Positions 42,848 through 49,573 of a DNA stretch of 64,000 bases are shown in pieces. The stretch comes from Prevotella sp. (GTDB lineage Bacteria > Bacteroidota > Bacteroidia > Bacteroidales > Bacteroidaceae). The first letter of the stretch is position 1, and every line of letters begins with the position of its first letter. Made by a program: the position numbers and the translations under genes. Under the pieces are notes generated by a model, which was given only the letters and a program-made list of their open reading frames with translations, was not told the origin of the DNA and ran no database searches. The DNA is taken from NCBI GenBank assembly GCA_017554105.1, contig JAFZIY010000026.1, positions 62,001 to 126,000 on the forward strand, in the 5' to 3' direction.

Positions 42848-45292
42848 TCAGTATGCTAGTTTCACAGTTTTCCCACTTACTTTTACAATATAAACGTCGC
42901 TTTTGGACAATGGGACTTCCATAGGCTGAGCATCCACCTTTACGGTTTTTTGCAACAAACCGTCCTTGGTGTAAACACGGATGAAATCCCCCGTATTAGC
43001 CCCAACAACTCTTACGCCATTTGAAGTGGCAGAAATCTTCACATCTGATACCATTGCAGCATCAACAGAACTGCTACCTTGCTCATAAACAACAGACAAT
43101 GTGGAGTTACTGTTTATGGCTGGAGTTGTGAATTTTCCATCATTACCTAATTGACTGGTTACATCAGAATTATTAAATGTTACAGAATGGACTCTCCAAC
43201 CATTGCTTGGTGTAATGGTGAAAGTGTAAACACTGCCCTTTGATACCCTCACGCTTACAGAACCATTGTCTGCCTGCTTAATAGTTAACAATGGGTCACT
43301 TTCAGGATAGTTTCCCACTATTGAGACAGTATTGCTAATCCTTGTCGAAGAATAATAGTTATTGTTACCATTTTGAATTGCACGGATAGAGAACTGGCCA
43401 CCAGCAATGCAATCAAGATACGTCTTAGTTCCAGCAGTATAGATTTCCGCTGCGCCATTGTCATCCATCGTATAGGTTATAGGCAAACCCGATGAGGCTT
43501 CTGCTTTCAGTTCCACCTGATCACCCACGTTAAGACCTGTCAAATCCTGTTCCCATGATATTGTCTGTTCTGCCTTGTTAATGGTAAGCGTACCTGATGT
43601 ATATGTGAAACTATAGTTGTCAGCATTACCTCCAGTCACATTAATTGGGTATGTTCCTACATTCGACGTTTTGGTAGCTGGAGTGCTTGCCGTTGCCCGC
43701 GAATTCAGCACGTTCACATTCTCATTCCCGACAAAACCATCATATATCACTTCAAATGTAGGATTATCCTCATTATATAATCTCTCATAGTTACCGACAG
43801 ATGCCGTCAAGGTTCTTGGAGTAATCGTTAAAGTGCCATTTATGTACGAGATGGAATAGTTGGGATTGTTAGCGTTTGTAGCCTTAATCTCATAGGTTCC
43901 TACGTTACTTGTCAAGTTTGCCGTTGTTGTGATTGTTGGGGCTGGAGATAAGGTACTACTGTTATCGCCATTTACGAAACCACTGCATGTATAGATGAAC
44001 GTAGGATTTTCACTGTAATATTGCCTTGTATTATCACTGGCCTTAATTGTCAGCGGAGCAGGCGTAATGGTTAAAGTACCTGGAGTGATTTCTCCTAATT
44101 CGTAGTTGATGGGGACACCATTTATAGCTTCCACTGTATATTGACCAACCCCACTGCTTTGCTTTGCACTTGTTTGGAACGAGGGACTTCTAGACCACGT
44201 TGGAACAGTTTCGTTATTTTTCAAACCAGAATACTCTATAGCAAAAGAAGGGTTCTTTGTTCCATAAACTTTTGTTCCGTCTTTCACCTTTGCTGATAAA
44301 GGTGCTTTCGTAACAGTCAGAACACCTGGCTCATACTCTAATTCATAATTTGCAGCTTCGCCTCCACTAATTGTGATAGGATATTCACCCACTTTGCTTG
44401 TTTTTATAGCTGTTGAACTGACAGTAGGCTGAGTTGTTATCATACTTTCGTTTTCCCCATTAACAAAGCCCGTATATGTGATATTGAATTGTGGATTCTC
44501 TTCTCCATACTCTCTACTTACATTATTTACCTTGGCAGTTAAATGTACGGGCTTGATGGTATATCGATATACCACTTTGGCGGTAAAAGATACATCTCCT
44601 TTAGTGAAAGTAACAGGAATCCACATTTCATAATCACCCGCTTCACTGCTAAGTGCTGGCATTGTTAATGAGGCTACATATCCCTCTACATTATTTGTCC
44701 ATGTTGTTGTAGGCGCCTGCCCCGTATAAGTGAATTCATTATCAGCGAAAGAAATCATCTCTATTACATGAGCGTCATTCATGGAATATTTGGGCGATGA
44801 GTATGACAGTAAGTCAGGAACATATGTTTTACTGGTAGCCGTCCAATTCTGGGGGGCTATAGTAGGCAGGTATATAATTTCACGAAAAAGAGAACATTGA
44901 ATGAAAATAGAACGACCATAATCATCAAAAAATTTTTCCACAGATTCTGGTATTATCAAAGAAGTAAGATTTCTACAACTATAAAAGGCATCAGTCCCAA
45001 TGCTTTTAATAGTATTTGGCATATAAACTGTTTTTAAACTGGTGCAATTTTTGAAAGCATAATCTCCTATTGCATTTACTGTGTAATTATAATCATTGTA
45101 GGAAATACTTGATGGGATGGTATATGTTTCCTCGATATAATAAGAATTCGAAGAGGAAGGAGCAACAGAAGCAGAAATTCCTGAAATCCAATAATACAAG
45201 TTCCCTACTTGTACTTGTATTCTTTCTTGTGCCAAACAGTTATGAGCAAGTGTAAAAGCTAATAACAAAAGAATAATCTTAAAGTGTTTCAT
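42848..45292 (-). CDS. Secreted BspA-type LRR protein with four MBG repeats
   Basis: An 814-residue protein with a signal peptide (MKHFKIILLLLAFTLAHNCL). Residues about 60-130 are BspA-type leucine-rich repeats (IGDYAFKNCTSLKTVYMPNT, IGTDAFYSCRNLTSLIIPES). Four MBG-type beta-sandwich repeats of about 82 residues start near 246, 330, 414 and 494 (LTAKVNNVSREYGEENPQF, LTIKASDNTRQYYSENPTF). Two further Ig-like regions lead to a C-terminal tail SDVYIVKVSGKTVKLAY, a likely sorting signal. Probably a surface adhesin. It starts 12 bp after the small gene at 45305, so it may share the transcript of the upstream AbiC-like gene. Confidence 0.88.
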   Translation of the reverse strand: MKHFKIILLLLAFTLAHNCLAQERIQVQVGNLYYWISGISASVAPSSSNSYYIEETYTIPSSISYNDYNYTVNAIGDYAFKNCTSLKTVYMPNTIKSIGTDAFYSCRNLTSLIIPESVEKFFDDYGRSIFIQCSLFREIIYLPTIAPQNWTATSKTYVPDLLSYSSPKYSMNDAHVIEMISFADNEFTYTGQAPTTTWTNNVEGYVASLTMPALSSEAGDYEMWIPVTFTKGDVSFTAKVVYRYTIKPVHLTAKVNNVSREYGEENPQFNITYTGFVNGENESMITTQPTVSSTAIKTSKVGEYPITISGGEAANYELEYEPGVLTVTKAPLSAKVKDGTKVYGTKNPSFAIEYSGLKNNETVPTWSRSPSFQTSAKQSSGVGQYTVEAINGVPINYELGEITPGTLTITPAPLTIKASDNTRQYYSENPTFIYTCSGFVNGDNSSTLSPAPTITTTANLTSNVGTYEIKATNANNPNYSISYINGTLTITPRTLTASVGNYERLYNEDNPTFEVIYDGFVGNENVNVLNSRATASTPATKTSNVGTYPINVTGGNADNYSFTYTSGTLTINKAEQTISWEQDLTGLNVGDQVELKAEASSGLPITYTMDDNGAAEIYTAGTKTYLDCIAGGQFSIRAIQNGNNNYYSSTRISNTVSIVGNYPESDPLLTIKQADNGSVSVRVSKGSVYTFTITPSNGWRVHSVTFNNSDVTSQLGNDGKFTTPAINSNSTLSVVYEQGSSSVDAAMVSDVKISATSNGVRVVGANTGDFIRVYTKDGLLQKTVKVDAQPMEVPLSKSDVYIVKVSGKTVKLAY

Positions 45293-45304
45293 AATAATTA
45301 ATAA

Positions 45305-45532
45305 TTATAGTTCAACATGATTTATATCTTGAAGATAAATACTATGATTGTCTGCTGTCAAGAAACCGACAAACAGATGAGGAGGGTTGGCTGCAGCCAA
45401 GAGATTCTGAAAACATACATCTTTGTATTCTCCATTATTGAGGACAATTCTAACCAATCGTCCTTTCGTTAATTCCGCAATTTGCTCATTTGGCAAATTC
45501 CACAATTCACTTTTAGAAATAATCTTGTCCAT
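45305..45532 (-). CDS. Small protein of unknown function (75 residues)
   Basis: A 75-residue soluble protein starting MDKIISKSELWNLPNEQIAE, with KGRLVRIVLNNGEYKDVCFQ suggesting a small beta-barrel. No known domain is recognised. It starts 5 bp after the next-upstream small gene and is followed by the LRR/MBG gene after 12 bp. The tight packing and AT-rich composition shared with its neighbours support a real gene. Confidence 0.6.
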   Translation of the reverse strand: MDKIISKSELWNLPNEQIAELTKGRLVRIVLNNGEYKDVCFQNLLAAANPPHLFVGFLTADNHSIYLQDINHVEL

Positions 45533-45537
45533 AGGCT

Positions 45538-45795
45538 TTATTTGTTGAATTTAAGTAAATTATTAATTTTTTCAACCACATCGTTAGAACAGTCTTCTTT
45601 ACACTTTGATATTATCATTTCCTTTTCAGAATCAGAAATATCTGAAGGCAAGACGTACTCTTCTATGTCTAACTTCTTCATAGTACGGTCATAGTGATGG
45701 AGGATTGTTCCATCTTCAAAGAAGTAATAATCATTGTCATAGATTCCTTTCCTCATTGAATGACAAACCCAAATCTGTCTTTTCTCTTTGTCCAT
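45538..45795 (-). CDS. Small protein of unknown function (85 residues)
   Basis: An 85-residue soluble protein. The segment DNDYYFFEDGTILHHYDRTM followed by LPSDISDSEKEMIISKC suggests a small beta-hairpin plus helix domain, not assigned to a family. Its start overlaps the 3' end of the AbiC-like gene by 59 bp in another frame, a translational-coupling arrangement. If the AbiC-like protein is a toxin-like effector, this could be a partner, but nothing in the sequence proves it. A later in-frame Met (MRKGIYDND) is an alternative start. Confidence 0.65.
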   Translation of the reverse strand: MDKEKRQIWVCHSMRKGIYDNDYYFFEDGTILHHYDRTMKKLDIEEYVLPSDISDSEKEMIISKCKEDCSNDVVEKINNLLKFNK

Positions 45796-46633
45796 AGCTT
45801 ATATCTGTTATAATATCAAATTCACTGAAGCATTTCAGAAATTCAAGTTCTTCCTTGCCAATTAGACATGAAACATGTTGGTAATACTCCTTCCTGTCTG
45901 TTTCTTTTTCTATTGCGCTTATAATATGCAGTATAAAACGCAGTGATTGTATGTATTTGCTAAAAGCAGTAGACTGATGATCTATAAGTGTAGCAAGCAA
46001 GAAGGACTCTCTTTCTATGCTATTCATTTGCTGATACTTCATTTTATCATCTTTAGTAATACCCCATTTGTCAACAAGATATAGTATTTGATTTGACCTT
46101 ATGTATTCCCGTCGCTCCTTTTCCGTTTTATCTAAGTCATCAGGACAAGGGTAGTTTTCATATAAAGCGTCTAATATATCAGAGTAATTATGAAGAACAT
46201 ACTCAAATTCATCCCTGTCGAACTCTGTGAAGGATTTATCTCCGAGACATTTATTTAGACCATTAATCATATTTCTGGCTGCAACAAAAGCTCTTTCTCC
46301 TTTATAGGATACAGTTGTTCCTATTCCCTTGGGAGAAAGACAATCACCATTGATATCAATATCTGTAGCATCTGTGCGAAAACTAGACAAAATAGGATAA
46401 AAACGAGAGTCAAATCGTTCAACCTCATTCTTGTGTTTTTCCTCGTTAAGTGATATTCGCTGCATTTCTAGAGTTGAGAACACCAAAATCGCTCCTGCCA
46501 AAGTTCCGAAAGCAGAAGCTATCCCGATATAGTTAAATGTACATGGAATACAACCTAAGACTCCTGCCATAATGGATGCTACAGCAACTATAATAAATAG
46601 AAATGCAATAACTTTGACACTTATCAGTCGCAT
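45737..46633 (-). CDS. AbiC-like phage abortive-infection candidate, two-helix membrane protein
   Basis: A 298-residue protein. Two N-terminal membrane helices (about residues 7-28, VIAFLFIIVAVASIMAGVLG, and 36-55, IASAFGTLAGAILVFSTLEM), a basic/acidic linker, then a helical cytosolic domain. The layout FDSRFYPILSSFRTDA, an intervening YSDILDALYENY, YIQSLRFILHIISAIEKET and LIGKEELEFLKCFSEFD follows the pattern of putative AbiC-family phage abortive-infection proteins (two helices, short FxxxFxxLL block, late YxxxLRxxL block). The assignment is by pattern, so moderate. DNA is more AT-rich than neighbours. An apparently structured RNA lies upstream on the same strand. Confidence 0.6.
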   Translation of the reverse strand: MRLISVKVIAFLFIIVAVASIMAGVLGCIPCTFNYIGIASAFGTLAGAILVFSTLEMQRISLNEEKHKNEVERFDSRFYPILSSFRTDATDIDINGDCLSPKGIGTTVSYKGERAFVAARNMINGLNKCLGDKSFTEFDRDEFEYVLHNYSDILDALYENYPCPDDLDKTEKERREYIRSNQILYLVDKWGITKDDKMKYQQMNSIERESFLLATLIDHQSTAFSKYIQSLRFILHIISAIEKETDRKEYYQHVSCLIGKEELEFLKCFSEFDIITDISYGQREKTDLGLSFNEERNL

Positions 46634-46721
46634 TTAGTTAAACCATTATTTCCTATGAGGAATTACGACCCTATGACACCCAAGTTAAGTCGGTTAATAT
46701 TCATTGACCCTAACCACACAA

Positions 46722-47050
46722 CAAAAAACGTGGGTATCCACCTTCTGCCCATCTGCTATCTGAGGCTAACCACAGCCCTGCAAGTTGACGAACAGAGTGA
46801 TACCCACGCAAAGAATTGCTGTTACGCCCGTAAGTGTGCGTTGAAGGCATGATTAGCCCTCACGCACACGACGGGATACGTTTTCAGCATACCCGTGACA
46901 TCAAACTCCGCATTGTCTTTGACTTGCAACTGATTGTGGTTATTTCAGATAGCCAATCGACAAAGCATCGTGTGACGCTTTTCCATTATGTAGTGTCCAT
47001 CCACATAGCTCTGCCCATCTCAATGGGCATCATAGTTACATGGTTGTTGA
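46722..47050 (-). ncRNA. Candidate structured non-coding RNA or long structured leader (about 330 nt)
   Basis: A minus-strand TATATTTG box at 47057-47064 predicts a 5' end near 47050. The 3' end is a 10-bp stem (46799-46808 with 46729-46738, CGTGGGTATC) followed by T6. In between: hairpin GCCCAT-CTCA-ATGGGC (47013-47028); long-range pairing of 46921-46953 with 46755-46789 in three collinear blocks of 9, 8 and 7 bp; and a two-part hairpin GTGTGCGT...ACGCACAC (46834-46869). I do not recognise tmRNA, RNase P, SRP or 6S features. The AbiC-like ATG is 89 bp past the T-tract, so it could be an attenuating leader. Confidence 0.6.
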
Positions 47051-47056
47051 CAGGTG

Positions 47057-47064
47057 CAAATATA
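47057..47064 (-). promoter_or_regulatory. -7 box for the candidate structured RNA
   Basis: Perfect TATATTTG on the minus strand. The nearest TTTG is only 12 bp upstream, so the -33 element is not canonical. Confidence 0.55.
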
Positions 47065-47425
47065 CAAAATTGTTTTCAAATTACGCATGCTTTTGAGAGG
47101 TTTTTTCAAAAAAAAGTTGTATTCACGAAACAGCACTATTCTGACACCTAACACCTGCTACCGATAATTATTTGAAATATAGACAACATTCAGTAGAGGG
47201 AGCTACAACTAGACTCATTGTTGATTAGGACATGAAAGGAATCCTGCCAGGATTGCTGAGTAAATTCGCCGAAATTACAATACCAAATGATATCACTCAT
47301 TGTGAAATGATATAACAAATGTACATAAAAGAAGAGGTAAACAGGGGCAAAAGAATCTCCCACCCTCCCCAGCAATTATGAGGAGGATGATACGGTATGA
47401 TTAATATAGGTATAAAGGCGGTTAA
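47065..47425. other. AT-rich gap upstream of the candidate RNA
   Basis: No gene is supported. It contains A/T tracts near 47100-47116 and no convincing hairpin. The 3' end of the gene at 47426 marks its border. Confidence 0.5.
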
Positions 47426-49499: not shown

Positions 49500-49573
49500 T
49501 AGCGAGAGTGGGTCACGATCCCACGACCTCCGGATTATGAATCCGACGCTCTAACCAGCTGAGCTATCTCGCC
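49500..49573 (-). tRNA. tRNA with CAU anticodon (Met, or Ile2 if lysidine-modified)
   Basis: 74 nt on the minus strand with a complete cloverleaf. Acceptor GGCGAGA/TCTCGCT (G1-U72 wobble), D arm GCTC/GAGC, anticodon arm TCGGA-TTCATAA-TCCGG and T arm GTGGG-ATCGTGA-CCCAC. No initiator features (C1-A72, three G-C pairs in the anticodon stem), so an elongator or Ile2 tRNA. CCA is not encoded. The T loop reads ATCGTGA, not the usual TTCnAnn. Confidence 0.93.

Follow-up and report, generated by a model that had tools for sequence, protein, structure and literature searches.

The minus strand of the window, the 64-kb stretch of DNA analysed here, carries a predicted RNA of about 330 nt (RNA-A) that belongs to an apparently undescribed family common in gut bacteria. 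By comparison of homologous sequences, we find a set of conserved core helices, a T-run, two competing partners for one strand and a position in front of a gene, as in a leader. What is new is that the 3' strand of the terminal stem, PT, has a second covarying partner, which lies beyond the T-run towards the gene. From this arrangement we infer termination at the T-run, read-through, a switch between the two pairings, its sign and a signal that sets it. The RNA probably helps to turn the downstream genes on or off; the more specific reading, to which we give about equal weight for and against, is that it acts in cis as a riboswitch-like 5' leader of the downstream gene and belongs to a new Bacteroidales family of large switch RNAs with a pseudoknot.

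Fold and conservation of RNA-A

The features of the locus are given below in the order in which they would be transcribed.

47057-47064, minus strand: promoter -7 box TATATTTG, of the TAnnTTTG type and kept before homologous copies
46723-47052, minus strand: predicted RNA of about 330 nt, based on its fold and its homologues, with the 5' end placed from the -7 box
47001-47043, minus strand: P0, a sequence-variable 5' hairpin, recognised by the match of its halves within and between copies
within 47013-47031, minus strand: the hairpin GCCCAT-TGAG-ATGGGC
46963-46980, minus strand: hairpin P1 (92.1% of cells paired)
46945-46953, minus strand: 5' strand of P2, 9 bp with 46755-46763 (double-sided changes at 8 of 9 pairs)
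46935-46942, minus strand: 5' strand of P3, 8 bp with 46767-46774 in the P5 loop (double-sided changes at 7 of 8 pairs)
46922-46928, minus strand: 5' strand of P4, 7 bp with 46779-46785 (double-sided changes at 7 of 7 pairs)
46834-46869, minus strand: hairpin P7 with GTGTGCG (GTGTGCGTGAGGGC...), helices 5 and 6 (double-sided changes at 12 of 13 pairs)
46787-46808, minus strand: 5' strand of PT, outer part 46799-46808 and inner part 46787-46796, helices 7 and 8 (87.9% and 94.7% of cells paired)
46764-46777, minus strand: hairpin P5, GGC-loop-GCC (98.4% of cells paired, just 3 pairs), whose loop pairs with the P3 5' strand
46729-46753, minus strand: 3' strand of PT, inner part 46744-46753 and outer part GATACCCACG at 46729-46738, the latter being the proposed switching strand
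46799-46808 with 46729-46738, minus strand: closing 10-bp stem (outer PT)
46723-46728, minus strand: T-run of six T after PT
46667-46691, minus strand: hairpin PD beyond the T-run, with loop core TGGGTGTC (46675-46682) complementary to GATACCCA (46731-46738)
45737-46633, minus strand: first downstream gene, 298 aa, with a hydrophobic N-terminus
45538-45795: 85-aa ORF between the 298-aa gene and the genes that follow
42848-45532, minus strand: further genes of the probable operon, encoding 75 aa and an 814-aa BspA-type LRR/MBG protein

The minus strand of the RNA region folds at -132.7 kcal/mol against -95.1 kcal/mol for shuffled sequences (z -7.6), an energy that 0 of 100 shuffles equalled. 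With a z of -6.2 the plus strand is well folded too, and we therefore assign the orientation from other features: the promoter, the T-run, the downstream gene and the second partner of the terminal stem. The -7 promoter box of Bacteroidota has the form TAnnTTTG, and we take TATATTTG to be a box of this type. In 112 of 130 copies such a motif lies 40-100 nt upstream of the core, compared with 3 of 53 control stretches, and at least five T within 8 nt follow PT in 127 of the 130. A sigma-70/terminator scan, limited to loops of 3-8 and with Bacteroidota promoters outside its range, returned no minus-strand site.

The helices were evaluated in 42 diverse copies, which remained after six awkward copies had been set aside, the rest clustered to 52, and 10 distant, hard-to-align copies dropped (alignment A3). 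Across this alignment, 67 pairs in nine helices have 86.5% of cells paired, 51 of the pairs show double-sided changes and the covariation score is 0.416. Shuffled controls gave 74.1% paired, 36.6 double-changed pairs and a score of 0.213, and controls slid by 1-3 columns gave 36-44%, 26-33 pairs and 0.079-0.129; relatedness among copies is kept by the slid controls and lost in shuffles and permutations. A smaller set (A1) comprises 31 copies, and 130 of 151 distinct copies, those with full model coverage, were used for the energy, PD and promoter/T-run statistics.

In P3, a single strand pairs with the P5 hairpin loop. PT crosses P2-P4, with its 5' strand placed before their 3' strands and its 3' strand after them, so that it forms a pseudoknot with the three blocks. 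The linkers are rigid: PT and P4 are separated by 1 nt in 42 of 42 copies, and P2 and PT by 0-2 nt. P2 and P4 may lie side by side between PT and P5, which would let all helices coexist. P7 is partly absent from distant copies, and the halves of P0 match better within copies than between them (-15.1 for own and -14.0 for permuted halves, sd 0.25, 130 copies).

The original prediction, made from the window alone, described a structured RNA with a promoter and a terminator-like end, and this part of it holds. The features it listed are all present on the minus strand (the TATATTTG box, the hairpin at the 5' end, the 9-, 8- and 7-bp blocks, the nested hairpin, the closing 10-bp stem and T6); folding of this strand and a comparison of homologues, both proposed as checks, bore it out, with the three blocks covarying strongly and the helices kept through changes on both sides. 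Its alternative fold through a repeated block, TCTGCCCATCT (46744-46754 and 47010-47020), is not conserved: complementarity of the 5' region to the block is -9.91 in own and -10.00 in permuted combinations (sd 0.17, 130 copies). It missed that the unit extends beyond the T-run as far as a covarying partner hairpin and the downstream gene, that a whole family exists, and that PT forms a pseudoknot with the blocks.

No tandem array occurs between 46560 and 47200, where the only direct repeats are a pair of 14-nt and a pair of 11-nt copies, and the window copy has no terminal inverted repeats. The 14-nt repeat (86%; 46705-46718 and 46761-46774) places the P5 loop sequence again just beyond the T-run. 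Pairing of P3 with the similar TGTGGTTA there (repeat D1) was considered and rejected, as the P3 5' strand against the downstream stretch gave z -0.6 and no covariation.

Identity, distribution and downstream genes

In Rfam 15, the only match in the whole 64-kb window is a tRNA at 49500-49573. The region 46600-47420, scanned up to E 5, gave just two weak matches, both to human lncRNA models, and six homologous loci scanned up to E 1 gave none. The expectation that the RNA is neither tmRNA, RNase P RNA, SRP RNA nor 6S RNA was thus confirmed by the absence of a covariance-model match, and ARAGORN found no tmRNA; together the scans rule out a known housekeeping RNA and leave a structured RNA without an Rfam assignment. 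A protein-coding gene on either strand is likewise ruled out, with at most 2 of 31 homologues stop-free in each of the six frames. We found no description of the family in the searched literature, including the accessible parts of PMC8040213, PMC2864571 and PMC11109978, as well as PMC8632094, which lacks relevant terms; supplementary tables and subscription journals lay outside this search, so a motif buried in a table is possible.

By BLAST, the window RNA has matches in 67 of 398 genomes of the same genus, and the sequence model R1 has matches in 253 of the 398. In the order, R1 matched 29 of 344 genomes and 22 of 194 genera, own genome included; in the phylum it matched 1 of 296 genomes, which is the own genome, although R1 uses sequence only with strict filters and may miss distant members. 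The own genome holds four clear copies and two further marginal matches (E 0.07 and 0.09). A narrow pattern found 31 named contigs, mostly metagenome-assembled genomes titled Prevotella, Prevotellaceae, Bacteroidaceae or Bacteroidales, many of them from ruminants. Close copies also occur in contigs titled Erysipelothrix and Lachnospiraceae (L210, L213), possibly misbinned. The phage and plasmid collections gave 0 BLAST matches and viral contigs gave 0 matches to the narrow pattern, so a phage or plasmid origin is unsupported by these records.

In two pairs of loci from different species (L119/L120 and L121/L122), the RNA is followed by one and the same gene, with the similarity confined to this unit and the flanks differing; RNA and gene may travel together as a cassette. 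In another set of copies (L021/L113, L028 and L032), the RNA body is intact and the T-run is replaced by a common sequence, TTTGAGCC..., which in L113 and L032 is followed by genes on the opposite strand.

As downstream gene we took, at each locus, the longest ORF (90 aa or more) with its start no more than 460 nt from the RNA end; this yielded 124 genes, from loci picked among the best-scoring matches rather than at random. Pfam assigned 33 of them to C5-methylases and seven each to the D12, N6_N4 and N6 methylases. By phmmer from seeds, DNA methyltransferases make up 59 of the 124; they account for 56 of the 95 genes from the genus and for 3 of the 29 from elsewhere. The remainder include BspA-type LRR proteins, lipoproteins, glycosyltransferases and SGNH hydrolases. 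In the own genome, the window copy precedes the 298-aa protein, which has no match in Pfam, NCBIfam or PADLOC, followed by small ORFs and the BspA-type protein; another precedes 96-aa and 461-aa proteins, with no Pfam match for the former or for the first 420 aa of the latter; another an N6_N4 methylase with a ResIII helicase; and another small ORFs with a 665-aa protein. At a further locus (L108:1374-2099), the downstream gene matches the defence candidate PDC-S31 and, weakly, DUF2971, and the next gene looks BspA-type.

Between the T-run and the gene, the TAnnTTTG motif is found in 0 of 73 short gaps (3.6 expected) and in 2 of all 123 gaps (10.0 expected). Because this gap lacks a -7 box, the gene is probably transcribed through the RNA, and for the same reason a leader of the downstream gene is more likely than a free-standing RNA.

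A second partner for the terminal stem

The outer PT 3' strand (GATACCCA in the window copy), referred to here as the guide strand, is complementary to its partner strand within PT and also to the loop of PD, which starts a median of 36 nt past the T-run. Among 130 copies, the guide-PD duplex has a mean energy of -14.0 with the own downstream stretch and of -11.0 with permuted ones (z -13), whereas three control segments tested against identical downstream stretches gave z of 1.4, 0.2 and -0.6. The 42-copy alignment contains eight guide-PD pairs with a score of 0.392, against 0.232 in shuffled and 0.054-0.113 in slid controls. The match is not exclusive, with a mean of 23% of the other copies' downstream stretches out-pairing a guide's own. 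Within 12 multi-copy genomes, own pairs average -14.1 (35 pairs) and cross pairs of the same genome -11.4 (76 pairs); in the own genome cross pairs often equal own pairs, the guides of L106 and L103 matching the L103 and L109 stretches to a similar degree. Support for the PD stem is only modest: it averages 4.56 bp in own and 3.85 bp in permuted stretches and reaches at least 5 bp in 59 of 122.

PT and the guide-PD duplex have nearly equal mean energies (-13.9 and -14.0 kcal/mol, with an sd of 4.0 for the difference), and these energies are uncorrelated across copies (0.08). In the mechanism that we propose, a compact core would form around highly conserved sequence, with P2 and P4 alongside each other, the P5 loop-P3 pairing as a cap and PT at the base. 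The PT 3' strand could then pair with its own 5' strand, giving a terminator-like stem followed by the T-run, or, in read-through transcripts, with the PD loop before the gene. The choice of partner, presumably set by a signal sensed by the core, would decide gene expression. PD is separated from the switching strand by the T-run, so it cannot prevent termination and its role must come later; it could act only in read-through transcripts, for example on the translation of closely following genes. Counting against a leader switch is the set of copies described above that lack the T-run.

A second RNA of about 190 nt, RNA-B, follows PD in 22 long-gap loci. One example lies at L141:667-857, with similar stretches at other C5-methyltransferase loci, and it is not in Rfam. 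The helix plan of RNA-B is that of RNA-A: in 35 of 39 copies, those in alignment A4, 44 pairs have 85.0% of cells paired and a score of 0.305, compared with 0.143 in shuffled and 0.057-0.124 in slid controls. The 5' arm of a terminator-like hairpin, which carries a T-run and in most of these loci directly precedes the methyltransferase ATG, overlaps with the final strand of the RNA-B PT. This hairpin has 90.8% of cells paired against 44-65% in slid controls, and is nearly devoid of double changes (1 pair, compared with 1.7 in shuffles). At 3 of 9 loci (L239, L240 and L242), RNA-B occurs without a detectable RNA-A nearby. Folding of PT suggests termination in RNA-A and anti-termination, by blocking of the terminator, in RNA-B, and the two RNAs together suggest, short of proof, that one core may drive differing output modules.

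Competing explanations and relation to known systems

A free-standing small RNA that ends at T6 and whose PT 3' strand base-pairs to the loop of the hairpin preceding the adjacent gene, either in trans or on nascent mRNA, is a possible but rather unlikely alternative. It would account for the conserved promoter and T-run, the terminator-like 3' end and the guide-like strand matched to PD, which in distant copies such as L196 reaches into an apparent internal loop of PT and exceeds the PT-paired part. However, no mRNA promoter motif occurs between the T-run and the gene, the guide strand is sequestered in PT, the elaborate 330-nt core exceeds the needs of antisense pairing, and each copy is accompanied by its own gene. 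Much less probable is a reading in which the RNA works together with the encoded protein, as its antitoxin, guide or cofactor. The order of RNA, terminator-like end and gene is typical of type III toxin-antitoxin pairs and RNA-guided enzymes, and many of the downstream genes are restriction-modification or defence-like; nevertheless, the downstream proteins are far too diverse for such a partnership, spanning several methyltransferase classes, BspA-type proteins, lipoproteins, glycosyltransferases and SGNH hydrolases, and the tandem repeats of type III systems are absent from 46560-47200.

We give an equally low probability to a ribozyme that recognises PD as a substrate hairpin through the loop-strand contact and processes the leader; the compact pseudoknotted core, the invariant unpaired residues and the docked downstream hairpin would suit such an activity, but the PD stem is only weakly conserved. 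Least probable, by a small step, is a mobile cassette or other DNA-level element whose end is transcribed by chance. While the recurrence of the same RNA and gene as a unit at different places and a genome with four copies speak for mobility, conservation follows the pattern of RNA helices and starts at the promoter, no transposase is a constant neighbour among the first genes listed, the window copy lacks terminal inverted repeats, and the phage, plasmid and narrow-pattern viral searches were empty. An IS110 bridge RNA or another guide RNA of a mobile element would call for a constant recombinase or nuclease gene nearby; the first genes listed vary.

The leader switch that we favour can be set against several known systems. 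Bacteroidales-1 RNA (RF01693) and the other Bacteroidetes motifs of Weinberg 2010 in the accessible part of PMC2864571 are, like RNA-A, Bacteroidales structured RNAs without an assigned function, but the RF01693 model, included in our Rfam scans, matched neither the window region nor the six other loci. The AbiF-type ncRNA, located upstream of an abortive-infection gene, is also a structured RNA preceding a defence gene; in the accessible part of PMC12373285, it accompanies one protein family, whereas RNA-A accompanies many unrelated proteins. Riboswitches and leader attenuators, as a class of mechanism, share with RNA-A a conserved core fold; they also have the 5' leader position that is probable for RNA-A and a 3' strand with two mutually exclusive partners, as proposed here for the two covarying pairings of PT. 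One mark of a riboswitch, a conserved aptamer-like structured core, is found by covariation in both RNA-A and RNA-B. RNA-A differs in that its second partner lies beyond the T-run and its core matches no Rfam class. In the rep leaders of IncI-type plasmids, translation is controlled by pseudoknots in which a hairpin immediately upstream of the start codon is paired with a loop some distance away. RNA-A has a comparable long-range contact with a hairpin before a gene, but the IncI RNAs are much smaller, belong to plasmid replication genes and have no terminator separating the partners.

More speculatively, and in our view rather improbably, RNA-A and RNA-B could belong, as separate branches, to a single undescribed superfamily of RNAs that sense signals. 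Bacteroidales would use these RNAs as a plug-in control of genes exchanged horizontally, restriction-modification genes in particular. Each would combine a pseudoknotted core with an output module that can be exchanged, a loop partner in RNA-A and a terminator in RNA-B, and might act as an RNA-based immunity switch that times the expression of methyltransferase and nuclease.

It is unusual for a structured RNA of this size, with covariation support this strong and found in over half of the genomes sampled from a dominant gut genus, to be absent from Rfam 15 and the searched literature. If RNA-A is a leader switch, it would represent a new class of regulator associated with restriction-modification and surface-protein genes, and the control of newly acquired defence genes in gut Bacteroidales would become directly testable.
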